50,688 bases of DNA from a virus. Shown here piece by piece: positions 10,850 to 28,104 of the stretch (within the stretch, counting starts at the first letter, position 1; each line of letters opens with the position of its first letter). The translations under genes and the position numbers were made by a program. The notes beneath the pieces are model-generated. The model had not been told where the DNA came from. It was given only the letters and a program-made list of their open reading frames with translations, and did not search any database. The stretch is taken from positions 1 through 50,688 of IMG/VR virus record IMGVR_UViG_3300044732_000890, one strand, 5' to 3'.

Positions 10850-11006
10850 CCTACGGCGCGGAACCCGCTACTTTGCCTCGGTTCAACCAAAAAGGCAACC
10901 CCCAAGGGTAAATTATTTTTCTGCAGAGGGAACCTTTTACCACCTCGGGCGTTGTAAATTGTTTTGTGCCCGCTAAAAATAATTTTACGCCACCCAAAAA
11001 TAAAGC

Positions 11007-11035
11007 TTGACTTCTGTTTCTAGCTGCCCTATATT
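11007..11035 (+). promoter_or_regulatory. Early promoter P1
   Basis: CTTGACT, 17 bases, CTATATT: an exact fit to the rhizobial housekeeping consensus CTTGAC-N17-CTATAT. It is preceded by the conserved block TAATTTTACGCCACCC and AAAAATAA. A 5-base-pair hairpin CGGTG/CACCG (11044-11063) and the leader GATAACGGAGAA follow before the first early gene. Confidence 0.9.
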
Positions 11036-11082
11036 ACAAGTTACGGTGATCACAACGACACCGCTGATAACGGAGAACCACG

Positions 11083-12060: not shown

Positions 12061-12079
12061 GCTGGCCCAAAAATAACAC

Positions 12080-12108
12080 TTGACTTTTGTTTCTAGGTTC
12101 CCTATATT
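12080..12108 (+). promoter_or_regulatory. Early promoter P2
   Basis: CTTGACT-N17-CTATATT (bounds: TTGACT 12080-12085, TATATT 12103-12108), preceded by AAAAATAACA. The 5' leader holds a hairpin GAGGC/GCCTC (12118-12133) and then GATAACGGAGAAA before the next ATG. Confidence 0.9.
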
Positions 12109-12155
12109 GAGGTTACTGAGGCGATGAGGCCTCGGCTGATAACGGAGAAACGACC

Positions 12156-12652: not shown

Positions 12653-12691
12653 GGCTGGGTCAGTCAAAATAATTTGGCTGACCCAAAATAA
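12653..12691 (+). terminator. Terminator-like hairpin fused to promoter P3
   Basis: GGGTCAG and CTGACCC form a 7-base-pair stem around a loop that itself contains the palindrome CAAAATAATTTG; AAAATAAG follows and is already the upstream block of P3. End of one unit and start of the next are thus joined. Confidence 0.55.
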
Positions 12692-12694
12692 GTG

Positions 12695-12723
12695 TTGACT
12701 TCTGTTTCTAGCTAGCCTATATT
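12695..12723 (+). promoter_or_regulatory. Early promoter P3
   Basis: GTTGACT-N17-CTATATT. The 17-base spacer (TCTGTTTCTAGCTAGCC) is nearly the same as in P1, P2 and P4, so these promoters are copies of one cassette. The leader has CGGT/ACCG (12732-12746) and TGATAACGGAGA. Confidence 0.9.
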
Positions 12724-12772
12724 TCATCTTACGGTACACGACACCGCGGATAACTGATAACGGAGACACGAT

Positions 12773-13259: not shown

Positions 13260-13418
13260 ATGAACTTCTTTGTCGCGTCATTTCACAACCCTAATTTTAT
13301 CATATCGTCAGCGTATCAGACGTTTTCCGAGGCCATGCACGCTGCCGAATGCATCAGGGTGTTTACCGGGGAACCTTGTCGGGTGATCCGCGTTGCATAT
13401 CTTTGGGTGACCCCGTAA
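13260..13418 (+). CDS. Small hypothetical protein (52 residues)
   Basis: An ATG with AAAGGAG upstream opens a 52-codon frame (starts MNFFVASFHNPNF, ends RVAYLWVTP) that stops exactly where the next hairpin-promoter block begins. It follows the previous gene by 13 bases. Two Cys are present; no family recognised. Confidence 0.65.
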   Translation: MNFFVASFHNPNFIISSAYQTFSEAMHAAECIRVFTGEPCRVIRVAYLWVTP

Positions 13419-13435
13419 AATAATTTTACGCCACC
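13405..13435 (+). terminator. Hairpin overlapping the stop codon, upstream of P4
   Basis: GGGTG/CACCC enclose a 15-base palindrome GTAAAATAATTTTAC (13415-13429). The stop codon of the 52-residue gene lies inside it. The same AATTTTACGCCACCC block stands before P1, so it belongs to the repeated promoter cassette. Confidence 0.55.
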
Positions 13436-13447
13436 CAAAAATAAAGC

Positions 13448-13476
13448 TTGACTTTCGTTTCTAGCTGCCCTATATT
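13448..13476 (+). promoter_or_regulatory. Early promoter P4
   Basis: CTTGACT-N17-CTATATT. The 60 bases from about 13417 to 13480 are nearly identical to those at P1. Leader hairpin GGGC/GCCC at 13486-13502, then CATAACGGAGAAA. Confidence 0.9.
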
Positions 13477-13524
13477 ACAAAACACGGGCGGCGATGATGC
13501 CCTCGCACATAACGGAGAAATAGA

Positions 13525-15180: not shown

Positions 15181-15303
15181 ATGTCTTCAGCCCCCAACCG
15201 ACGCTTTCGGATGTCGTTCGGTAAGTTGCATAGCGAAGAAGCTAGACTAAAGATATCAGAAGCCCAACGCAAAAGATGGGCAATAAAGAAAGGTAAAGTT
15301 TGA
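15181..15303 (+). CDS. NUMOD3-like small DNA-binding peptide (40 residues)
   Basis: This 40-codon frame from the ATG at 15181 contains GKLHSEEARLKISEAQRKRW, the pattern of the NUMOD3 motif, a DNA-binding module normally found in HNH and GIY-YIG homing endonucleases (G-x-x-x-S-x-E-x-x-x-K-I-S). Here it stands alone, very basic, with no nuclease domain. It ends in TGATG with the PLP-enzyme start, so the two are translationally coupled. It may be a remnant of a homing endonuclease or a DNA-targeting peptide used by the modification enzymes. No strong ribosome site is visible. Confidence 0.6.
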   Translation: MSSAPNRRFRMSFGKLHSEEARLKISEAQRKRWAIKKGKV

Positions 15304-16241
15304 TGGCTCTCCCTACCCCAGCAGACCTCGACCGCCTCGCCGCCAAGCTCACGCCTTGGGAAAACCCGCAGGGTTTTTGGTTCAAGCGAGAAGACAAGTT
15401 TGCCCCGCTCGGTTACGGTGGCCCGAATGGATCAAAATTACGTCAGCTAATTCACCTCTTTGCCCGGCACAAGGGTAACGCTACGCATGTGGTGACTGGT
15501 GCGAGCATTCAGTCTCCGCAGCATAGCATGACCGCGTTCCTCGCTGCCGTGCACGGTCTCCCCTCCCTGCATGTCGTCGGTGCCACGACGCCAGAAACCA
15601 TTATGCGTCACCCCAACCCGCTCATCGCCGCCGGGTTCGGAGCCGCGTTTGACTATATCAAAGTTGGCTACAACCCGGCTTTGCAGAAGCGTGTGGCAGA
15701 GCTCAAACGGGAGATGGACGCAGCCTTCGAGGTGCCGTATGGTATCACGCTCGCTACCGACCTCTCCAGCCCTGAAGACCTCACAGCCTTTCACAGCGTT
15801 GGAGCGGCGCAAGTGGCGAACATCCCGGAGGAGGTGACCACGCTTATCGTACCGGCGGGAAGCTGCAACTCGCTAACCTCTGTCCTGCTTGGCCTCACAA
15901 CGCACAGCAACAACGTGCAGAAGGTCGTCAGCATCGGCATCGGTCCCTCCAAGATCGGCTGGGTGCGTGACCGGCTGCGCAAAATGAACGTGGACCCCGA
16001 CCGGCTCGCGTTTGAATGGAACCACAACATCTCCCTGCACGACAGCGATTATGCCAAGTACGGGGACCGTATGCCCGAGACGTTCGCCGGTATCAACTTC
16101 CATCCTACGTATGAGGGGAAGATGGTGCGGTGGATGAAGGAGCACGATATCTTCCGCGCCAACGCAGACTGTGGCTACGGCTTCTGGATCGTTGGCTCTG
16201 ATAGCAACCCAGAGGTATGTCGTCCTTTCTTTACGAATTAA
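15303..16241 (+). CDS. Fold-type II PLP-dependent enzyme, likely DNA-base tailoring
   Basis: This 312-residue protein is related to ACC deaminase, D-cysteine desulfhydrase and tryptophan synthase beta. Lys45 in GPNGSKLRQL matches the cofactor-binding lysine position, and VPAGSCNSLTS (about residue 183) matches the glycine/serine-rich phosphate loop. Metabolic enzymes of this family are rare in phages, but PLP enzymes recur in thymidine-hypermodification clusters; in Salmonella phage ViI one acts on an amino acid already joined to the base. The place beside the transferase, kinase and thymidylate-synthase homologue supports such a role. The start is the ATG at 15303, with AAAGG 9 bases upstream. 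The exact reaction (decarboxylation, deamination or elimination) cannot be read from the sequence. Confidence 0.82.
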   Translation: MALPTPADLDRLAAKLTPWENPQGFWFKREDKFAPLGYGGPNGSKLRQLIHLFARHKGNATHVVTGASIQSPQHSMTAFLAAVHGLPSLHVVGATTPETIMRHPNPLIAAGFGAAFDYIKVGYNPALQKRVAELKREMDAAFEVPYGITLATDLSSPEDLTAFHSVGAAQVANIPEEVTTLIVPAGSCNSLTSVLLGLTTHSNNVQKVVSIGIGPSKIGWVRDRLRKMNVDPDRLAFEWNHNISLHDSDYAKYGDRMPETFAGINFHPTYEGKMVRWMKEHDIFRANADCGYGFWIVGSDSNPEVCRPFFTN

Positions 16242-16265
16242 ATTCGCACTGCCTAAAAATAACGC

Positions 16266-16294
16266 TTGACTTCCTCCCCCGGTGCGCCTAAATA
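16266..16294 (+). promoter_or_regulatory. Early promoter P5 (modification cluster)
   Basis: CTTGACT-N17-CTAAATA, preceded by CTAAAAATAACG. The spacer differs from P1-P4. Leader hairpin CGGGG/CCCCG (16303-16317), then GTATAACGGAGA. It drives the nuclease-like, methyltransferase-like and two transferase genes. Confidence 0.85.
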
Positions 16295-16337
16295 AGGTTC
16301 ATCGGGGGTTGGCCCCGCGTATAACGGAGATAGAATA

Positions 16338-16703
16338 ATGGCTCGTAACACCACTGGACATTCTGGCGAGAAGTTTGTTGAAGCTATGCTCGGTTTTCAG
16401 GGCTTCACGGCTCTCGTCGCCCCGGCGGGCAACCCTAACTGGGATATCATGGTCGCTGAAAGTGGTAAGAAAATTTCGGTAAAGGCCTCTAACTCGTCCG
16501 GTTTTGTAGCTGAGTTTTCAGCTACAGACACGTTCGATGTTCTGGCCGTAGTGGATGCATTTAATTCACGCTATCCACGTGTATGGTTCATCCCCCGCTA
16601 TATTGCGATCAAGCTCCCCACCGTAGGCGGTAAGGTGCGTATAAAAGCTTCGGATTTGAATTACGATCTTGCTCAGTTTGAAACCAACTTCGATGTCCTC
16701 TAA
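16338..16703 (+). CDS. PD-(D/E)XK-like protein of unknown role
   Basis: This 121-residue protein has the core of the PD-(D/E)XK fold: a helix with Glu15, then GNPNWDIMVAESGKKISVKAS, where Asp36 and Lys49 stand at the active-site spacing, but the usual Glu before x-Lys is Ser/Val. It could be a divergent or inactive nuclease that binds DNA. It is the first gene after P5 and starts the modification operon, so a role in recognising or protecting modified DNA is possible. Confidence 0.6.
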   Translation: MARNTTGHSGEKFVEAMLGFQGFTALVAPAGNPNWDIMVAESGKKISVKASNSSGFVAEFSATDTFDVLAVVDAFNSRYPRVWFIPRYIAIKLPTVGGKVRIKASDLNYDLAQFETNFDVL

Positions 16704-16713
16704 CGGAGACCCC

Positions 16714-17457
16714 ATGACCACTCACTGGAAAATCCTAAACAAATATCCGTTCGAGCTGATTCCCGGCGAGGCTAAAGAGATGCCCGATGGAGATCTCTCA
16801 TACTATGAGTATCTGAACGGTCGCTGGAAGGAGACTGGCAAGAACGTGATGGCTATCGCGTGGCTGCTGCGCAACTTCCCGCAGGGTCTAAAGATTATCG
16901 AGCCGTTCGGCGGCTGTGGCGTGTTCTCGGTGGCTATTCAAGAGATAATGAAGCCAAGCTATCATCGCATCGGCGAGCTGGATGGCGACTGCTACAAACA
17001 GCTTACGCACGTTATGTCTCGCTATCCCAGCGCCGCTGTCTTCAACGATGATGCCCATCAGACCCTCGGCACCATCGCCGGGGACATCTACGTCTGCGAC
17101 TTCCCGTTCTTCACCCTGATCAAACACGAGACCGGGTATTGGGTTGAGGAGATGAAGCGTATAGTCGCCCAGCGTCCACGTGCTATCCTCATCACGGATG
17201 GAGCAAGCTGCCGTTACCACTTCACGGCTAAGGCTCTTTCCAACAGAGGCTACCCGGTCACCCCGGACCGTGAGAGCTACGCTTATTGCTTTGACCAGAT
17301 GATGTCCCGCACATACGACTATCACGTGACCGGGATGGTCTATCACGGCACATGTTTCTACATCCGAGTTGAGCCCGAGCCTCGTGAGATTGAGTTCCTG
17401 AAGCTGGAGGCTGGCTCGGGCGTCAACGGTCTGCGTCCCGACCCGAAAGGTATTTGA
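16714..17457 (+). CDS. Methyltransferase-like protein in the modification cluster
   Basis: This 247-residue protein starts at the ATG at 16714 (AACGGAG upstream). It resembles class I SAM-dependent DNA methyltransferases: EPFGGCGVFSVA (63-74) as the SAM loop, GELD (87-90) as the end of strand 2, NDD (111-113), and CDFPFF (128-133) where adenine methyltransferases have DPPY. The changed catalytic motif argues against a standard adenine methyltransferase. It may act on the modified thymine side chain or have lost methylation. It lies directly upstream of the transferase gene (one base apart). Confidence 0.65.
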   Translation: MTTHWKILNKYPFELIPGEAKEMPDGDLSYYEYLNGRWKETGKNVMAIAWLLRNFPQGLKIIEPFGGCGVFSVAIQEIMKPSYHRIGELDGDCYKQLTHVMSRYPSAAVFNDDAHQTLGTIAGDIYVCDFPFFTLIKHETGYWVEEMKRIVAQRPRAILITDGASCRYHFTAKALSNRGYPVTPDRESYAYCFDQMMSRTYDYHVTGMVYHGTCFYIRVEPEPREIEFLKLEAGSGVNGLRPDPKGI

Positions 17458-17458
17458 C

Positions 17459-18460
17459 ATGACCATAGATTATCGCCCGCACCCAACCCGCGTCATGTAC
17501 TGCGAGGATCTCTACCGGGTCAACCTCGAGCATGGGATCATGCCGGGTCTCGTCTACCTCTACATGCCCGCTCTCAAACAGACCCTCAACTGGTCTGAGG
17601 AGCGTGCGCTGTGGTTCGCCTTCATCAACGGTATGACCCAGAACCCGCTCACCTCTCTGCTGATCCTTGAGCAGCTGCCGGATGTACCCGACCCCGGCGA
17701 CCCCATCACCACGTTTGACGAGTGGTTCAACCGTGAGTGGCCGCGCCTCTTCTTCGACACCGACCGGCTGAAGAACAAGCGCAACACGATATCTGCGATC
17801 AAGTCCTACGCCAAGCTCGTCGGCGAGTATGGCTCGCAGCAGCTTATGCTAGACAACCGTACCTATCCCGAGCTCTGGAACATCGTGTCCAACGGCTACT
17901 ACAGCTTCGGTCGCCTGTCCACGTTCTCGTATCTTGAGTACGTGCGGATCATGGGTCACGGATCCATTTGCGCCGACCTTATGGTCTCGGACAAAGGTGG
18001 CTCTAAATCCCACCGCAACGGTTTGCTGTTCCTGACTGGTCTTGACCATATGGTTAATGATCCCCGCGCTAAGAACGGGTTTGATGGCAACTATCAGGAC
18101 TACGACAAGATGTGCGGCTGGCTGACCGAACAGGCTAACGAGTTCCTGCGCCGGTTCACCGCTAAGCACACGTACCAGCATACCGGCTACTTTACATTTG
18201 AGTCGCAGCTATGTCAATTTAAAAATAATTTCTTTGGTCGACGTTATCCAGGATGCTACGCCGACATGGCGTTTGACCGGCTATTGAAACATGAAGACGC
18301 GTGGGGAAAGGACCGAGCGACGAAATTGATTTGGGATATCCGCACATCTCTTCCAGACTGGCTGCGTAACGAGGCTAAGAACGACAAACTGTCTATACCG
18401 GACCGGGCCAAGATCTTCCCGCGCACCGGCTTCCCGTACAGAGGAGAACATTTCCTGTGA
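17459..18460 (+). CDS. Amino acid:DNA transferase-like protein (alpha-glutamyl/putrescinyl-thymine pyrophosphorylase family)
   Basis: This 333-residue, mostly helical protein starts RVMYCEDLYRVNLEHGIMPG and has the family pattern WFAFINGMTQNP (52-63). This family was predicted, and in phages ViI and M6 shown, to replace the pyrophosphate of an activated 5-hydroxymethyl-dU in DNA by an amino acid or polyamine. It overlaps the next gene by GTGA. The assignment comes from motif memory; the substrate (Ser, Gly, Glu, putrescine) cannot be read. Confidence 0.8.
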   Translation: MTIDYRPHPTRVMYCEDLYRVNLEHGIMPGLVYLYMPALKQTLNWSEERALWFAFINGMTQNPLTSLLILEQLPDVPDPGDPITTFDEWFNREWPRLFFDTDRLKNKRNTISAIKSYAKLVGEYGSQQLMLDNRTYPELWNIVSNGYYSFGRLSTFSYLEYVRIMGHGSICADLMVSDKGGSKSHRNGLLFLTGLDHMVNDPRAKNGFDGNYQDYDKMCGWLTEQANEFLRRFTAKHTYQHTGYFTFESQLCQFKNNFFGRRYPGCYADMAFDRLLKHEDAWGKDRATKLIWDIRTSLPDWLRNEAKNDKLSIPDRAKIFPRTGFPYRGEHFL

Positions 18461-19332
18461 ACTCAACCCTCAAGCACTTCATAACCGAGCGCGAGGCCAT
18501 TCGTGTGCGCAAGGCCTCGGGTCAGCCCGCACCGTGGACAACCGACCCCATTTTACAGCAATATCGTTTCTGTAACGTCCACCGCCGCGACGACCGCGTG
18601 TCTCAGTGGCTGCTGAAGCACTATTATCCACACACCGCCAAGGGTGTGGACGCTTGGTTTCCGGCTTTGGTTGCCCGGTTCATCAACTGGCCTCCCACCC
18701 TGAAGCTCCTATTGGAGTCCGGCGTGGGGCTGGCAGCCGGGGAGGTGTGGAACCCTCATGCGTTCGAGGCGGTGATCGCTAGGCTCAAGTCTGCCGGCGA
18801 GAAGGTTTACACCGGAGCGTACATGATCTATCCGGGTAGTAGGGATGGCGACACCGCCGTGGCAAACAAGGAGCAGTTCCTCGCGCGGCAGGTCTTCGCC
18901 GGTGCGCGGGCTAACACCTCCAAGATTCGTCATGCCATCTGGCAGCTGAGCATAGAAAAGACGGTACACGAGCTCACCCAGAGCTACGGTATCTCTACTT
19001 TCATGGCAGGGCAGGTCGCCGCCGATTTGACTTACCTATACGATGCGCTGGACCTCGCCTTGGATAAGCGAACCTACGCACCTATGGGACCCGGCTCCAT
19101 CCGGGGTCTGAACCGTATACACGGCTTTAAGCTAACGCATACTTGGCAACCTCACGAATTTGTAGAGGCTTTGATGGATATTCATAGAGATATTGAGCGC
19201 GAGCTGGGAATTATGGACCTCACGCTTCACGATGTGCAAAACATTGCAGCTTGTGAATATGACAAATACCTGCGTGTGCTCAATGGTGAGGGTAAACCTC
19301 GCGCAAATTACCGACCAGAAACCGCTTTTTGA
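18457..19332 (+). CDS. 5-hmdU DNA kinase helical-domain-like protein
   Basis: This 291-residue protein contains ILQQYRFCNVHRRDDRVSQW (33-52), the hallmark of the helical domain that in several phages is fused to the P-loop 5-hydroxymethyl-dU DNA kinase, and which was first named a clade of thymine pyrophosphorylases. Here kinase and helical domain are separate genes (the kinase follows at 19390). It starts with GTG overlapping the preceding stop, with AGAGGAGA upstream. It probably binds the modified base or its DNA for phosphorylation. Confidence 0.8.
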   Translation: MNSTLKHFITEREAIRVRKASGQPAPWTTDPILQQYRFCNVHRRDDRVSQWLLKHYYPHTAKGVDAWFPALVARFINWPPTLKLLLESGVGLAAGEVWNPHAFEAVIARLKSAGEKVYTGAYMIYPGSRDGDTAVANKEQFLARQVFAGARANTSKIRHAIWQLSIEKTVHELTQSYGISTFMAGQVAADLTYLYDALDLALDKRTYAPMGPGSIRGLNRIHGFKLTHTWQPHEFVEALMDIHRDIERELGIMDLTLHDVQNIAACEYDKYLRVLNGEGKPRANYRPETAF

Positions 19333-19334
19333 AC

Positions 19335-19363
19335 TTGACTTAACCCGTAAACCCGGCTAATCT
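19335..19363 (+). promoter_or_regulatory. Promoter for the kinase / dUMP-hydroxymethylase pair
   Basis: CTTGACT-N17-CTAATCT starts 3 bases after the stop of the helical-domain gene. It lacks the AAAAATAA upstream block, so it is probably weaker than P1-P4. The leader is AAGATAACGGAGAA without a hairpin. Confidence 0.75.
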
Positions 19364-19389
19364 ATCGCAACAAGATAACGGAGAACTAG

Positions 19390-19989
19390 ATGCCAATCAT
19401 CATCAACCTGCGTGGAACGTCCGGCTCCGGCAAGACTACGGCCGCCCGGTTTTTCCTCAACAACTACACCAATATCGAAATGCGGCGCAGCGTGACCTCG
19501 CCCAAGGGCCGCACTTCATCTAAGATTATGGGTTATGCCATAGACGTTCCCACCTTGCAGCAGTCGCTGTATCTTGTCGGGGCGTACGGTGCCGTGTGCG
19601 GGGGCTTGGATACCATGGGCACTCAGGCCGAGCATGCCGATCTGATCCTCAAGGCCTACTCCGCCGGCAACGTGCTGTGCGAGGGTCTACTGCTGAGCTC
19701 AGTAAGCTCCGGGGCCACAGTCCCGGCGGCCATGATCGGGGCGGCCGGTAAGGAGCGTGTGATCTTTGCTTTTATGGACACTCCGCTAGACGTATGTTTG
19801 GACCGCGTGCGCGGCCGCCGAGCGGCCCGAGGCGATGATAAACCTTTCAACGAGACCAACACTCGTAAGAAGTATGAGGACACACAAGCCGCTCGTCAGC
19901 GACTTATTGACGAGGGCTGCCGTGTCGTAGACATCAGCCACCTCAACCCCGGACCCCAGCTCCTTTCTCTTTATCAGGACAACGAATAA
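19390..19989 (+). CDS. 5-hydroxymethyl-dU DNA kinase-like P-loop protein
   Basis: This 199-residue protein has Walker A GTSGSGKT (9-16), VLCEGLLLSS, and FMDTPLDVCLDRVRGRR as a nucleotide-kinase-like lid region. It resembles the P-loop kinases that phosphorylate 5-hydroxymethyl-dU within DNA in hypermodifying phages. Its neighbours (helical partner before, thymidylate-synthase homologue 1 base after) fit this exactly. A generic nucleoside kinase is the alternative. Confidence 0.8.
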   Translation: MPIIINLRGTSGSGKTTAARFFLNNYTNIEMRRSVTSPKGRTSSKIMGYAIDVPTLQQSLYLVGAYGAVCGGLDTMGTQAEHADLILKAYSAGNVLCEGLLLSSVSSGATVPAAMIGAAGKERVIFAFMDTPLDVCLDRVRGRRAARGDDKPFNETNTRKKYEDTQAARQRLIDEGCRVVDISHLNPGPQLLSLYQDNE

Positions 19990-19990
19990 C

Positions 19991-20947
19991 ATGCACTTCA
20001 TCTTCGAAAACTGCAACGACGCATGGCCGACGACGGTTCAGATGATACAAACATCTGGAGTTATCCGTAACAGTCGCAACGGTCGCGTTTCTGAATATCC
20101 GGATCCGGTTACGATAACATACGAGCGTCCGTATGAGCGGGTCTTGTTCTGCCCCTTGCGCAACATCAACCCCTTTTTGCACTTCTTTGAGCCACTTTGG
20201 ATTCTTGCCGGACGCCGGGATGTTGAGTTCCTTTCTAACATTGTTGGTCGTTTCCGCGACTATTCAGATGACGGTAAGGTATTCAACGCTGCCTATGGTC
20301 ACCGGCTTCGTTACCCTAACGATCAGATCGCCGAAGCTATTAAGCGTCTAAAGCGTAATCCGGACGATAGACAAGTCGTTCTTCAGATACGCAAGCCAGA
20401 CGACATTTACTACACGGGAAAGGACACCGCATGCAATTTGTCAATTGCGCTTAAGGTGCGTAATCGCTATTTGGACATTCACGTATTTAATCGCTCTAAC
20501 GACGTTGTTTGGGGCGGCCCTGCGGGAGGTGCAAATTACCCTCAGTTTACAACCATCCAGGAATATATTGCCGGTCACGTGGGTTGCGGTATTGGCCGGT
20601 ATCACCACACAACAGATAGTATGCACGCTTACATCGACAGCCCAGACTGGGACCGGGTAAAAGACGTTCAGGGTTATCACGACTTATACCTTTGGGACAA
20701 TGTTCCGCCATATCGTCTTTTTGATGGTTTGTTGTTCCCTGAACTGTTTGATCAAGATCTGCAGTTCTTCTTTAGCGAGCGGGCTACAACCGGATACGCC
20801 ACCTCTTACTTTAAGGATGTCGTTGGGCCGATGTGGGCCGCGTTTCAGGCGTATAAGCGTAGGGAGCAGGTAGATTTTTCCGCTATACGAGCCAGGGATT
20901 GGGCTTTTGCGGTTGAATCTTGGCTCGCGCGCAAAAATAAAGCTTGA
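19991..20947 (+). CDS. Thymidylate synthase homologue, probable dUMP 5-hydroxymethylase
   Basis: This 318-residue thymidylate-synthase-fold protein shows Cys148 in DTACNLSIAL at the nucleophile position, FNRSNDVVWGG (compare QRS.D in thymidylate synthase) and HHTTDSMHAYI near the end of the site. Between them GGPAGGANYPQF replaces the usual GLPFNIA, typical of divergent phage pyrimidine hydroxymethylases. It would make 5-hydroxymethyl-dUMP with methylene-tetrahydrofolate and water. The stop codon lies inside the -35 box of the next promoter. Confidence 0.85.
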   Translation: MHFIFENCNDAWPTTVQMIQTSGVIRNSRNGRVSEYPDPVTITYERPYERVLFCPLRNINPFLHFFEPLWILAGRRDVEFLSNIVGRFRDYSDDGKVFNAAYGHRLRYPNDQIAEAIKRLKRNPDDRQVVLQIRKPDDIYYTGKDTACNLSIALKVRNRYLDIHVFNRSNDVVWGGPAGGANYPQFTTIQEYIAGHVGCGIGRYHHTTDSMHAYIDSPDWDRVKDVQGYHDLYLWDNVPPYRLFDGLLFPELFDQDLQFFFSERATTGYATSYFKDVVGPMWAAFQAYKRREQVDFSAIRARDWAFAVESWLARKNKA

Positions 20948-20972
20948 CTTTCTTTTCTGGGCCGCCTATATT
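20944..20972 (+). promoter_or_regulatory. Early promoter P6, -35 overlapping a stop codon
   Basis: CTTGACT-N17-CTATATT, preceded by CAAAAATAAAG. The TGA of the hydroxymethylase gene is the central TGA of TTGACT, and AAAAATAA codes its last residues. Leader hairpin GAGCC/GGCTC (20982-20997), then GATAACGGAGAA. Confidence 0.9.
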
Positions 20973-21018
20973 GGGGTTACTGAGCCGCTGATGGCTCGGC
21001 TGATAACGGAGAATTAAC

Positions 21019-21681: not shown

Positions 21682-22188
21682 ATGCAAAACCTCCTGAACA
21701 TCTACCGCGCCGGGTCGGTGCGCCGTTATCATACGGCGCTCCACCTTCATCCTCAAGACGTAGCCTCCCACTCTTGGGGTGTGCTAGCTATCCTTATGCA
21801 TATTGAGTCGCAGCCCTCTGCGAACCTTATGCGTGCCGCCGTGTATCACGACGTCGGTGAGGTGATCACAGGCGATATCCCGGCTCCGTTTAAGTGGGAC
21901 AACCCGAAGCTTGCCAAAGCTCTGGCGGAAGCGGAAGCCAAAGCCGAAGAGAAGCTTGGTGTGTCCTACACGCTTACTGAAAAAGAGCGTGTAATTTTAA
22001 AGATTGCAGATCTTGCAGAGCTTGTTCTGCGAAATGTTCAGGAGTTTATGCTTGGCAATCGTTATGCCGCTAAGATCATTCAACGTGGCCTCGGTGCTCT
22101 TGACGAGTGCTATGGTCGGGCCGGGGAACGTGCGGATGAGTTCATCCGCGAGCTTGAAAAGTACACCCACGAGATGGAGGACAACTGA
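21682..22188 (+). CDS. HD-domain 5'-nucleotidase (YfbR-like)
   Basis: This 168-residue protein has the HD-fold pattern RRYHT...VASHSWGV, then YHDVGEVITGDIPAPFKW and IADLAEL, as in YfbR-type deoxynucleoside 5'-monophosphatases. In a phage that replaces thymine it could remove dTMP or another competing nucleotide so that the modified base is used. The nucleotide preference cannot be read. Overlaps the next ATG by one base (TGATG). Confidence 0.82.
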   Translation: MQNLLNIYRAGSVRRYHTALHLHPQDVASHSWGVLAILMHIESQPSANLMRAAVYHDVGEVITGDIPAPFKWDNPKLAKALAEAEAKAEEKLGVSYTLTEKERVILKIADLAELVLRNVQEFMLGNRYAAKIIQRGLGALDECYGRAGERADEFIRELEKYTHEMEDN

Positions 22189-22487
22189 TGTCTGAAGCCG
22201 ATAAAGTACAAGTTGGCGGCACGCACTATAAAAACGACGCGATCCCGGACCACTGGACAATCGTTTACGCTCTCGGATGGGACTATTTTGTGGCTACGAG
22301 CACCAAATATTTGTGGAGACTTGGCAAAAAGCATCCTACACTTGAAGGTCAGTTGCAAGACTTAGACAAAGCTATCCATTACTTGACCAAGAAGCGGGAA
22401 TTACTTGCTGCGGAAATCGAGGCCGAGCGTCAGTATGAAATGAGCCTCGGTGGCCCAACATCTGGCTACGTTAATCAGGACCGTTGA
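22188..22487 (+). CDS. DUF3310 protein
   Basis: This 99-residue protein has the DUF3310 signature: VQVGGTHYKN (8-17), I.DHWTIVYALGWDYF, and KYLWRLGKKHPTLEGQLQDLDKAIHYL. The family is common in phages near nucleotide-metabolism genes and is sometimes called nucleotide-kinase-like, without proof. It ends in TGATG with the polymerase start. Confidence 0.85.
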   Translation: MSEADKVQVGGTHYKNDAIPDHWTIVYALGWDYFVATSTKYLWRLGKKHPTLEGQLQDLDKAIHYLTKKRELLAAEIEAERQYEMSLGGPTSGYVNQDR

Positions 22488-24325
22488 TGGCCCGCTCAAC
22501 GCTCATCGTTGATACAGAGACCTTCTCCAACGTCTTTTTGCTTGCCGGCAAGAACGTGGAGAATGGTCGACGGTTCCATTTTTGGCTACACGAAGTCGGG
22601 CCAGACCCGATCCGTGCGCTGATAAGGAACCCCGATGTGACGTTGGTGACGTTCAACGGTCGCTATTTTGATATCCCAGTGCTCGCCGCTGCAGCCAAGG
22701 GGATGACCGAGAGGGAGATCAAGGACCTCGCCAACGCCCTAATCGACGACCGCATGCCGCCATGGACCGCCGAACGCAAGTACGATCTACCCCGCGTAAC
22801 GGTTGATCACGTGGACCTTATGCAGGTTGCGCCCAGTTTTGTGGGTCTCAAAGCCTATGGTGCTCGGATGGGGATGCCGTGGCTCAAGGAGCTACCTTTC
22901 CCGCACGACGCCCAAATCCACCCGGAGCAGCTTGATGACGTTCTACACTATTGCTACAACGATCTCGACACTACTCACGAACTATTCAACCGGCTGCGCG
23001 AGCCGCTTGAGCTTCGCATCCAGATGAGCAAGGAGTATGGGGTGGACATGCGCTCCAAATCTGATACGCAGATGGCTGAGGCCGCCTTTATTAAGCGGCT
23101 GAACTTGAAGCGTGGGGAGCCCAATATCCCACCGTATGTTACGTACACCGCGCCCGATTACATTCAGTATCGTGATCCGGTTTTAACTCAGATCAAGGAG
23201 CAGATCGAAGCTCATCGCTTCCGGGTTAACCAGACTACCGGGCACGTGATCATGCCGGACTTTCTCAGTCAGCCAATCACTATCGGGCCGGGGACGTATC
23301 AAATGGGTGTGGGTGGTCTACATAGCACGCACGATAAAAGCGTATGCTATACCGCTGACGCTGAGTGGGGTCTGACTGACATTGATGCTGCGTCCTTTTA
23401 TCCCAGCATCATGGTGCATGCTAACATGATCCCGAAGAACACGGGTAAGGCTTTTCTTGACGAGTACCGGAGGATTTACGAGCGCCGCCTGACCGCTAAA
23501 CGCGTCGGGGATAAAACGACCGCTAACACACTCAAGATCTCTCTCAACGGCACCTTCGGCAAGACGGCAGACCGCTTTTCCCCACTATATAGCCCGGACC
23601 TGATGATCGCTATCACGCTCACGGGGCAGCTTGTGTTGATGTGTCTGATCGAGAGGTTCCACAACGCGGGGTTCTACGTAGCCTCCGCCAACACGGACGG
23701 TATCGCGGTCTGCTATCCCAACGCGGACCGAGGTGTATTGGAGCAGATCGTCAATGAGTTCTCAGCGGTTTCCAAGTTTGAATTTGAGTATACACCTTAC
23801 CGCGTACTGGCACTCAAAGATGTTAATAACTATATAGCTGTGACGCCGGAGCGCAAGATCAAAGCTAAGGGTTTGTACGCACCACCTGACCTGCGTAAGA
23901 ATCCATCGGCTTCGATCGTCGCCAAAGCCGTTGGTGAGTGGTTGAGCCGGGGAACCGCGTTCGAGGATACTATCCGCTCGGGCACCTTGACGGAGTTTTT
24001 GTCGGCTCGAAACGTAACCGGAGGAGCCGTTCAGGGTGAAACCTACCTTGGGAAGGTGGTTCGTTGGTATCAAAGCACCGATGCGTCACTTTCTCCCTTG
24101 ACTTATCAGAAGAATGGAAATAAGGTTCCCAAGACCGACGGGGCAAGAGCCCTTATGCTGATAACCCAAAACGAAATACCTGAGGATATAGATATTTCAT
24201 GGTACATCCGGGAGTGTGTTAGGGTAGCCAAGTTGCTAGGCTGTGCTCACTTTCTAACAACGGAACAGTTAGCCTGCGATCCCCCAAAACAAAGGAAGAT
24301 TAGGAGTAAAAAGAATGGAAATTGA
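22487..24325 (+). CDS. Family B DNA polymerase (compact)
   Basis: This 612-residue protein starts at the ATG at 22487, coupled by TGATG to the previous gene. Exonuclease: VDTET (Exo I, 8-12), FNGRYFD (Exo II), YCYNDLDTTHELF (Exo III). Polymerase: motif A DIDAASFYPSI (about 301), motif B KISLNGTFGK (about 349), motif C NTDG (about 402), then a KxKG-type region IKAKGLY. It is clearly shorter than typical PolB enzymes (750-900). In motif C the first Asp of DTD is Asn, while the second, metal-binding Asp is present. It would copy the genome, probably with 5-hydroxymethyl-dUTP. Confidence 0.93.
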   Translation: MARSTLIVDTETFSNVFLLAGKNVENGRRFHFWLHEVGPDPIRALIRNPDVTLVTFNGRYFDIPVLAAAAKGMTEREIKDLANALIDDRMPPWTAERKYDLPRVTVDHVDLMQVAPSFVGLKAYGARMGMPWLKELPFPHDAQIHPEQLDDVLHYCYNDLDTTHELFNRLREPLELRIQMSKEYGVDMRSKSDTQMAEAAFIKRLNLKRGEPNIPPYVTYTAPDYIQYRDPVLTQIKEQIEAHRFRVNQTTGHVIMPDFLSQPITIGPGTYQMGVGGLHSTHDKSVCYTADAEWGLTDIDAASFYPSIMVHANMIPKNTGKAFLDEYRRIYERRLTAKRVGDKTTANTLKISLNGTFGKTADRFSPLYSPDLMIAITLTGQLVLMCLIERFHNAGFYVASANTDGIAVCYPNADRGVLEQIVNEFSAVSKFEFEYTPYRVLALKDVNNYIAVTPERKIKAKGLYAPPDLRKNPSASIVAKAVGEWLSRGTAFEDTIRSGTLTEFLSARNVTGGAVQGETYLGKVVRWYQSTDASLSPLTYQKNGNKVPKTDGARALMLITQNEIPEDIDISWYIRECVRVAKLLGCAHFLTTEQLACDPPKQRKIRSKKNGN

Positions 24326-25929: not shown

Positions 25930-25937
25930 GGGTATCT

Positions 25938-25969
25938 GTGGGGGCTTCGGCCCCCACCAAATTATTTTT
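25938..25969 (+). terminator. Intrinsic terminator before P7
   Basis: GTGGGGGC-TTCG-GCCCCCAC (8 base pairs, UUCG loop), then CAAATTATTTTTG. The T-rich part is also the upstream block of promoter P7. Confidence 0.85.
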
Positions 25970-25989
25970 GGGCGACCTAAAAATAACGC

Positions 25990-26018
25990 TTGACTTTTGC
26001 GCCGGCAGGCCTCATATT
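25990..26018 (+). promoter_or_regulatory. Early promoter P7
   Basis: CTTGACT-N17-TCATATT, preceded by CTAAAAATAACG. Leader ACTGATAACGGAGAA without hairpin. Confidence 0.85.
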
Positions 26019-26047
26019 GGACTCAAGACTGATAACGGAGAACCAAG

Positions 26048-26911
26048 ATGACCGACTTCTTTGACCACCTCCCCGAGTTTGAAATCATCGAAGGCCCGGC
26101 TCGTCCGGCCCAGACCCGTCAGACGTTCCCCTGCGAAAGCTGCGGCGGCAAGGGTAAGGTCGCCAAGGTGTACGGCTATACGCCGATGACCCAGCGCACC
26201 TACATGAACACCTGTCCGATTTGCAAAGGTAAGGGCCACTTCTTCACCTCCTACGCCGATCGTCAGAAGTCTCAGGCTCAAGCCGCTGCTGCTAAGGTTC
26301 GCAAGGCTGAGGCCGCCCGTGAGGACTTTGATACCGCCAACCCCGGCGTCCGCGAGTTCCTTATGGGTGCTATGAATTGGTCGAGCTTCGCCGCTTCCTT
26401 GTTTGAGAGCCTCGCCAAGCACCATAGCCTCTCGGAGAAACAACTTGCGGCGGCTCAGAGCATGATGGAGAAGGCCAAGTCTCGCGACGCCGAGCGCAAC
26501 GCTAAGCGCGCAGCCAATACCGTGACGCTGGATGCCTCCAACATCCTCGGCATGTTCTCTACGGCCAAGGCCAACGGCTTGAACCGTCGCGCCCTGCTGG
26601 CCGGTGGCACCGAGGGTAAGCTCAAGGTCACCCCGTCCTCGGACACGAGCCGCAACGCTGGTGGTCTGTGGGTCACGGTCGACGACGAGTTCGTCGGCGG
26701 CATCAGCAAGACCGGCGAGTTCCAGCCGCGCAGCAACACCCCGGCATGGGCTAAGGACGCCCTGCTCCGCATGGCTGCCGACCCGGCTGGCGAGGCTCGC
26801 CTCTACGGTCAGCGTACCGGCGTGTGCTGTTGCTGTGGTCGCGAGCTTACCGACCCGGTCAGCATCGAGGCTGGAATAGGCCCGATATGTGCAGAGAAGT
26901 GGGGGCTCTAA
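26048..26911 (+). CDS. Zinc-finger protein with DnaJ-like CxxCxGxG and C-terminal DUF6011-like part
   Basis: This 287-residue protein has CESCGGKGK (Cys29, Cys32) and CPICKGKGH (Cys56, Cys59), which make one DnaJ-type zinc site. A helical, Ala-rich middle and a basic domain GGLWVTVDDEFVGGISKTG follow. The end CCCCGRELTDPVSIEAGIGPICAEKWG is the DUF6011-type treble-clef pattern that appears in many phage and plasmid proteins. It probably binds nucleic acid; the exact role is unknown. It is transcribed alone between P7 and a terminator that overlaps its stop. Confidence 0.78.
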   Translation: MTDFFDHLPEFEIIEGPARPAQTRQTFPCESCGGKGKVAKVYGYTPMTQRTYMNTCPICKGKGHFFTSYADRQKSQAQAAAAKVRKAEAAREDFDTANPGVREFLMGAMNWSSFAASLFESLAKHHSLSEKQLAAAQSMMEKAKSRDAERNAKRAANTVTLDASNILGMFSTAKANGLNRRALLAGGTEGKLKVTPSSDTSRNAGGLWVTVDDEFVGGISKTGEFQPRSNTPAWAKDALLRMAADPAGEARLYGQRTGVCCCCGRELTDPVSIEAGIGPICAEKWGL

Positions 26912-26933
26912 GCCCCCATCAAATTATTTTTTG
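26900..26933 (+). terminator. Intrinsic terminator overlapping a stop codon, before P8
   Basis: TGGGGGCT-CTA-AGCCCCCA (8 base pairs); the TAA stop of the zinc-finger gene lies in the loop and stem. TCAAATTATTTTTT follows. Confidence 0.85.
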
Positions 26934-26952
26934 GGCAGCCTAAAAATAACAC

Positions 26953-26981
26953 TTGACTTTTGAGAGCATCGGTGGCATATT
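26953..26981 (+). promoter_or_regulatory. Early promoter P8
   Basis: CTTGACT-N17-GCATATT, preceded by CTAAAAATAACA; leader CTGAATAACGGAGAAA. It drives the nuclease / MT-A70 pair and what follows, to about 30.75 kb. Confidence 0.85.
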
Positions 26982-27011
26982 GGGTTCACAACTGAATAAC
27001 GGAGAAACAAG

Positions 27012-27575
27012 ATGACTATCCGCACCGTCAAAGATGCTGACTCAATACATAAGCTCGTAGGTCTGTATGCCGCGCTTCAGTCAGCGCGAGTTTCGTCTGG
27101 ATACTTTGTAGAGGACCGGGTAGCTGATGTTTTATCTACGTTATACACCGGGACGTTAGTCAAGCGGTTCAAGATTAAATCTCCTAATTCAGATAGAAAA
27201 ACGAAACAGTTCGATGTAGCAATTCGTAACGGTAACTCTCTAGATGTGTTTGAAATTAAAACATACGCGGGAGATTCATTTACCTATTCTGAAGATACTG
27301 TGTTCAAGTCCATTTACACCGACTTGGAAGTTCTAAAATCCGCAAATCCCGGTGTTGATGTAAAGCTATACTATGTGTTTTCAGATATTGATAGTGAGTT
27401 TGCGATACGTATGAAGAAAGAAAAAGTTGTCGGTGTGATATCGTTTGCCGATATAGGTCTGAATGCAAACGAACTTATCATCGAAGGTATGATGCTAAAA
27501 TTCAATAAGAACCTCGCTGACCTGTCCATTTCTGATAATCTCAAGAAAGCTATAACTGATGAATTCTCAGCGTAA
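27012..27575 (+). CDS. PD-(D/E)XK endonuclease-like protein, partner of the MT-A70 methyltransferase
   Basis: This 187-residue protein has a restriction-endonuclease-type core: Glu34 in YFVEDRVADVL, Asp68 in KQFDVAIRNG and Glu81-x-Lys83 in VFEIKTYAG. The C-terminal 80 residues are helical. The reading frame is visibly A+T-richer than its neighbours, a sign of separate origin. Its end overlaps the methyltransferase start by 17 bases, so both are made together, like a small restriction-modification pair. It could also be a nuclease that spares modified DNA. No family name can be given. Confidence 0.65.
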   Translation: MTIRTVKDADSIHKLVGLYAALQSARVSSGYFVEDRVADVLSTLYTGTLVKRFKIKSPNSDRKTKQFDVAIRNGNSLDVFEIKTYAGDSFTYSEDTVFKSIYTDLEVLKSANPGVDVKLYYVFSDIDSEFAIRMKKEKVVGVISFADIGLNANELIIEGMMLKFNKNLADLSISDNLKKAITDEFSA

Positions 27576-28104
27576 ATATAAGGTGATATACGCCGACCCG
27601 CCGTGGAACTTTGAAACGTACTCTGAAAAGGGACAAGTCAAAACCCCTCACAGACATTACGGTTGCATGACCGAAGCCGATATCGGAAAACTACCGATAT
27701 CAGATATTGCTGACAAGGACTGCGCACTATTTATGTGGATAATAGACAGTCATCTACACCACGCGATGAAAATTATTGAGCAGTGGGGTTTTACTTATAA
27801 AACTGTCGCGTTTGTCTGGGCTAAAACCACCAAGCATAACAAATGGCATTTTGGGCAAGGCTACTGGACCCGTAAAAACCCAGAAATATGTTTGATGGCC
27901 ACTAGAGGTTCTCCTAAAAAAGCTTCTTGGGCTGTACGTCAGCTTGTAGTTGCTCCGGTTAGGGAGCATTCTCGTAAGCCTGACGAAGTCCGGGAGGGTA
28001 TTGTTCAGCTGATGGGCGATGTACCTAGGATTGAACTGTTTGCAAGGACTACAACTCCCGGTTGGGACGTATACGGCAACGAAACAGATAAATTTAAACC
28101 ATGA
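27559..28104 (+). CDS. MT-A70 family adenine-N6 methyltransferase
   Basis: This 181-residue protein has the catalytic DPPW (13-16, in YADPPWNF), KDCALFMWI, FVWAKTT and NPEICLMATRG, all typical of small phage MT-A70 enzymes that methylate adenine N6 in DNA. The C-terminal FARTTTPGWDVYGNE is the usual end. It overlaps both the nuclease-like gene before and the next gene (4 bases, ATGA). Confidence 0.93.
   Translation: MNSQRKYKVIYADPPWNFETYSEKGQVKTPHRHYGCMTEADIGKLPISDIADKDCALFMWIIDSHLHHAMKIIEQWGFTYKTVAFVWAKTTKHNKWHFGQGYWTRKNPEICLMATRGSPKKASWAVRQLVVAPVREHSRKPDEVREGIVQLMGDVPRIELFARTTTPGWDVYGNETDKFKP

Follow-up and report, generated by a model that had tools for sequence, protein, structure and literature searches.

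Evidence for a thymidine-hypermodification operon, very probably of the ViI type, with a methyltransferase-like candidate tailoring enzyme

The virus record IMGVR_UViG_3300044732_000890 was analysed over a stretch of 50,688 bases (hereafter the window). At positions 15181-20947 it carries a cluster of genes, all on the + strand, that a preliminary description made from the letters alone had proposed to be a thymidine-hypermodification cluster. The description listed five core proteins and three further members; all the open reading frames (ORFs) that it named were found. Downstream of the thymidylate synthase (TS) homologue lie an HD 5'-deoxynucleotidase, a DUF3310-like protein and a B-type DNA polymerase. 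The features are as follows.

15181..15303, + strand: NUMOD3 peptide of 40 amino acids (PF07460 8.3e-4), a probable homing-endonuclease remnant.
15303..16241, + strand: fold-type II pyridoxal 5'-phosphate (PLP) enzyme of the ViI branch (phrog_3650 9e-78), predicted to decarboxylate or reshape the appended amino acid.
16236..16330, + strand: repeated promoter and ribosome-binding cassette (direct-repeat families D3 and D12; AACGGAG motif at 16323).
16338..16703, + strand: 121-residue orphan, PD-(D/E)XK-like in the preliminary description; no family or homologue, probably inserted cargo.
16714..17457, + strand: methyltransferase-like (MT-like) protein (EPFGGCG ... CDFPFF), a predicted tailoring enzyme dependent on S-adenosylmethionine (SAM).
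17459..18460, + strand: ADDT, an amino acid:DNA transferase (aGPT-Pplase2; PF18724 5.6e-12).
18457..19332, + strand: HMUDK_hel (aGPT-Pplase1), the helical protein of the 5-hydroxymethyldeoxyuridine (5-hmdU) DNA kinase (PF18723 1.7e-44).
19390..19989, + strand: P-loop 5-hmdU DNA kinase (Walker A GTSGSGKT; phrog_800 4.8e-17).
19991..20947, + strand: TS homologue, predicted dUMP 5-hydroxymethylase (phrog_5131 1e-84; PF00303 4.5e-16).
21682..22188, + strand: YfbR-like HD 5'-deoxynucleotidase (PF12917 2.5e-16), predicted remover of competing dNMPs.
22487..24325, + strand: B-type DNA polymerase, kept in order in sister contigs and presumed to use hydroxymethyl-dUTP (hmdUTP).

Profile searches against Pfam and PHROGs match all five core proteins, so that this part of the preliminary description is borne out. 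The PLP enzyme (also PF00291, 3.3e-6) is 35-37% identical to Ackermannviridae enzymes and keeps the Schiff-base lysine (GxNGSK) and the GSCN phosphate loop of the ViI enzyme. ADDT scores 46.3 bits against a cut-off of 26.2 and has homologues among ViI, Mycobacterium phage and Montesquieu proteins, while those of the helical protein are found in M6, PhiW-14 and ViI. The kinase is homologous to the M6 and ViI kinases; its score against PF18748 (5-hmdU DNA kinase) is 19.1 bits, under the cut-off of 27. The best solved relatives of the TS homologue are CMP 5-hydroxymethylases (4e-23), true thymidylate synthases being weaker (1e-8 or worse). It too has homologues in M6 and ViI, with 37% identity to the latter. 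The label "terminase small subunit" that PHROGs gives to phrog_800 looks wrong for those members that are 5-hmdU DNA kinases of these operons.

Five separate pathway families adjoin one another, and dozens of related contigs repeat their order, so that the arrangement is not due to chance. Its identity as a thymidine-hypermodification operon is strongly supported. The order is kept across about 80 viral contigs. The HD nucleotidase gene adjoins that of the TS homologue in the sister operons too, and the polymerase is akin to siphophage DNA polymerases. The core of the window agrees with the published gene list of the ViI-like pathway, which comprises a dUMP hydroxymethylase, kinase(s), a PLP enzyme and two aGPT-Pplases (PMC6336734).

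The preliminary description took its pathway logic from phages ViI and M6 together, and only the first of these models holds for the whole core. Kinase, helical protein, TS homologue, ADDT and PLP enzyme all have matches in the ViI genome. The M6 genome, home of the 5-(2-aminoethyl)deoxyuridine (5-NedU) pathway in a Pseudomonas phage, yields no match to the ADDT or the PLP enzyme of the window (a radical SAM enzyme was not specifically searched for there), although its kinase, helical, TS, HD and DUF3310 proteins are related and the kinase-helical-TS order is shared. An origin of the transferase and PLP enzyme in the M6 branch is thus rejected, and the core is very probably of the ViI type. 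Phages that have relatives of ADDT also have relatives of the PLP enzyme; most are Ackermannviridae, and Glutamicibacter phage Montesquieu is a further case. In the latter the two genes adjoin each other, and in Mycobacterium phage Magpie ADDT is followed by a kinase-like gene; unlike the window, both clusters are devoid of an MT-like gene. ViI itself differs from the window in that its genes are scattered, whereas those of the window are gathered into one compact operon, in a siphovirus-like genome of roughly 50 kb. Moreover, the window ADDT is only about 26-29% identical to its Ackermannviridae counterparts and the MT-like enzyme is an addition. Since ADDT and PLP enzyme belong to the ViI rather than the M6 branch, the core should, by analogy, build an aminoethoxymethyl-type base of a known kind, such as the 5-(2-aminoethoxy)methyldeoxyuridine (5-NeOmdU) produced in ViI and CBA120 (PMC11721090).

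The MT-like protein is the member that sets this operon apart. It has no significant match in Pfam or NCBIfam, and an alignment of two members against PDB sequences returns chance matches only. Scanning viral contigs for degenerate DNA encoding EPFGGCG uncovered 14 contigs with such proteins, and a subsequent profile-guided scan gave the same 14. A divergent member on a further contig (L115) and the window bring the family to 16 viral contigs. Three features hardly vary within the family: the EPFGGCG motif (motif I), the DFP motif and an acidic residue that follows strand 2. The window protein carries CDFPFF as the preliminary description had stated, and this sequence occupies the position of the (D/N)PP(Y/F) motif IV of amino-methyltransferases (N6A/N2G class). 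DFPF lies 59 residues after EPFGGCG in 13 of the 14 main copies, the remaining one (L043) having CDFPHF. The family thus has DFP(F/H) at motif IV, with EFPF in one paralogue and DFPA in a divergent member. Relative to DPPY the change is essentially of one residue (P to F), the aspartate being kept save in the EFPF copy, which belongs to a tandem pair.

An AlphaFold2 model built from 14 homologues is of good quality by its own scores (predicted local distance difference test 86.7, predicted template-modelling score 0.87); with only two MT-like sequences the former was 38 and the model of no use. Foldseek returns 232 PDB matches at E <= 0.001, the best of which are methyltransferases, and the model shows a class-I methyltransferase fold with a glycine-rich motif I. 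Trm1 heads the list, and RsmD, TrmM, METTL16 and M.BseCI, all nucleic-acid N-methyltransferases, are among the matches. RsmD and Trm1 share with the MT-like protein the class-I fold, motif I and the position of motif IV, but have (D/N)PP where the latter has DFP. By hhalign, CDFPFF falls on the VDPPF motif of RsmD with p 0.0014, versus 0.3 for an unrelated control. The modelled fold can be assigned with confidence, and use of SAM by the protein is likely. Two BFVD proteins from uncultured Caudovirales phages, A0A6J5NT11 and A0A6J5RCZ9, resemble it over the full length of the fold (TM 0.92 and 0.77; identity 40% and 29%). They carry only the name "AdoMet_MTases domain containing protein". Membership in the Dam (D12) family was considered and rejected, since the resemblance to E. 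coli Dam is limited to a short match at motif I (p 0.037).

Linkage of the MT-like gene to the pathway is strict. ADDT is present on 16/16 contigs of the family, in the fetched stretch in 15 and elsewhere on the contig in L088. Neither 50,697 phage records nor the scanned genomes of 84,980 prokaryote species yielded an MT-like relative. The commonest gene order is PLP, MT-like, ADDT, kinase/helical, TS, HD, DUF3310 and polymerase. Conversely, the MT-like gene occurs in 12 of 81 ADDT-anchored loci; in most of the others the PLP gene adjoins ADDT directly or across a small ORF. In the ADDT tree, members with an MT-like gene fall into at least two groups, that of the window and another with ten rows; the second fork, however, has only moderate support (97/79), and the labels that close relatives carry are not independent of one another. 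This distribution, together with the operons that lack the gene (L101 and L107, for example), indicates that it behaves like an optional extra in a pathway that is functional without it. Its ratio of nonsynonymous to synonymous substitution rates between relatives is 0.05-0.15, denoting strong purifying selection. The MT-like protein belongs to an undescribed family and is a true, if optional, member of the operon, which upholds its inclusion by the preliminary description among the extra members of the cluster.

Some loci depart from the common arrangement. In L040:8879-10680 (= L098:517-2318) a tandem MT-like pair occupies the usual place of the PLP gene, its second copy reading LEFPFF, not CDFPFF. 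In L115:2720-4928 a second helical/kinase pair is directly followed by the divergent MT-like gene (YDFPAS), away from the main ADDT-kinase-TS block. In L088:6441-7741 the MT-like gene adjoins a 2-oxoglutarate-Fe(II) oxygenase (PF13640 1.7e-14).

In the ViI pathway, serine is reportedly appended and then decarboxylated by the PLP enzyme. By analogy with the named relatives of each protein, the operon of the window would replace some of the thymine of the phage DNA as follows. The TS homologue would produce hydroxymethyl-dUMP and the polymerase would build hmdUTP into DNA, with the HD nucleotidase helping to remove ordinary dTMP or dUMP. Kinase and helical partner would then phosphorylate 5-hmdU within the DNA, ADDT would swap the phosphate for an amino acid (serine on the ViI model), and the PLP enzyme would trim the latter, on the same model by decarboxylation to an aminoethoxymethyl group. 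Finally, the MT-like protein would act on the appended group in a SAM-dependent step, most likely by N-methylating its amine, as suggested by the fold and motif position of the protein and by its strict genomic linkage. This class of methyltransferases acts on amines and the pathway makes one, so that N-methylation is the simplest reading.

The best reading, in our view, is a ViI-type pathway that includes a further SAM-dependent tailoring step, in which the appended amine is possibly N-methylated; we give it a probability of about 0.5. The role of the MT-like protein as tailoring enzyme of the hypermodified base, drawn from fold, motif position and strict linkage, is held at even odds as well. 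The more specific proposal, that its target in DNA is the amino group of an aminoethoxymethyl-type thymine, or else a close intermediate, and its product an undescribed methylated base derived from an amino acid, is tentative and somewhat less probable. The earlier suggestion that the final base may be new is accordingly better supported than it was from the letters, but through the MT-like protein only. Several observations weigh against a methylated amine as product. The second residue of the amino-methyltransferase motif is phenylalanine, not proline, in every member. The structural matches in the PDB are distant (TM about 0.5), so that the substrate is not readable from the fold, and they also include C-, O- and small-molecule methyltransferases. 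Furthermore, L040/L098, with its two MT-like copies, has no PLP gene in its 11 kb, nor has L115 in its 13 kb; the substrate need not be a decarboxylated amine.

The altered motif IV, from (D/N)PP(Y/F) to DFPF, can also be taken to mean that the MT-like protein is a non-catalytic or structural partner, for instance a recruiter or a DNA-binding subunit without methyltransferase activity. The pathway would then be a plain ViI-type one, ending in 5-NeOmdU or a close analogue. The five core proteins are enough in ViI (PMC6336734) and many sister operons do without the gene. Nevertheless, the near-invariance of motif I, of the acidic residue and of DFP, under strong selection, is as expected of an active SAM enzyme, and we regard a non-catalytic role as unlikely. 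Rather less probable still is an ordinary DNA methyltransferase (e.g. adenine N6) that gives extra protection from restriction and rides in the operon by chance. The fold and motif order, like those of amino-methyltransferases including M.BseCI, the weak Dam signal around motif I and the frequency of such enzymes in phages speak for it. The window phage has in fact a separate candidate DNA-modification gene of this sort, an MT-A70 type methyltransferase (27559-28104; PF05063 8.9e-33). Against it, all 16 contigs of the family carry ADDT, usually adjacent to the MT-like gene, and the 50,697 phage records and 84,980 prokaryote genomes held no relative outside ADDT contigs; in addition, the distance of only about 65 residues between motifs I and IV leaves no space there for a target-recognition domain.

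The contigs with MT-like genes and no PLP gene, once with a tandem pair, bring up another possibility, namely that the protein acts on an intermediate instead of the finished amine, for instance methylating the carboxylate or alpha-amine of the amino acid or using SAM to transfer some other group. Since these contigs are fragments, the PLP gene could be elsewhere, and most MT-like genes are directly coupled to one; we hold action on an intermediate to be improbable.

The other two extra members fared differently from the MT-like protein. The NUMOD3 peptide scores 19.7 bits against PF07460, for which the cut-off is 20.4, and matches the homing endonucleases of phrog_314 (4e-4) and phrog_655 (0.06). 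Its 40 residues comprise NUMOD3 only, with no nuclease domain. In the L001 and L002 operons, full homing endonucleases of the phrog_314/phrog_655 families interrupt the stretch between ADDT and the kinase/helical genes. The peptide does not recur in sister operons and was rejected as a pathway part; it is probably a homing-endonuclease remnant. The 121-residue protein was likewise rejected, being absent from sister operons. It has no profile match, nor relatives in phages or sister operons, which leaves the PD-(D/E)XK label given to it unsupported, and its motif is SVK, not (D/E)XK. It sits behind a promoter/ribosome-binding cassette that recurs before other genes of the window phage, and is probably inserted cargo. 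For the peptide and the 121-residue protein alike, cargo that was inserted or has decayed is the preferred interpretation.

The cassette has the form CTTGACTT ... CTATATT ... GATAACGGAGAA, measures about 80-100 bp, with some copies partial, and stands in front of many genes, those of the kinase and of the 16338 orphan among them. Its copies lie at:

10977-11078
12067-12150
12682-12761
13418-13520
16236-16330
19335-19386
20931-21013
25937-26043
26900-27005

Other ADDT operons show variation of their own. In a PLP-less ADDT clade (L122, L127, L131, L137, L139, L140 and L143), ADDT is closely preceded by the gene of a conserved protein of 167-171 residues, without clear family, which may be either an alternative tailoring enzyme or unrelated. 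In two operons (L124:6857-7792 and L170:5023-5841) a DHH phosphoesterase gene (phrog_4771) lies between those of the PLP enzyme and ADDT.

Hypermodifications of phage DNA defeat many restriction enzymes, and they supply enzymes able to rewrite DNA bases. One scan confirmed 249 ADDT relatives, from which it appears that a widespread group of uncultured phages uses this chemistry. The compact operon of the window, with one extra, optional and conserved SAM-type enzyme, provides a named candidate for a new tailoring step. If the MT-like protein does act in this way, the finished base may be one not yet described.

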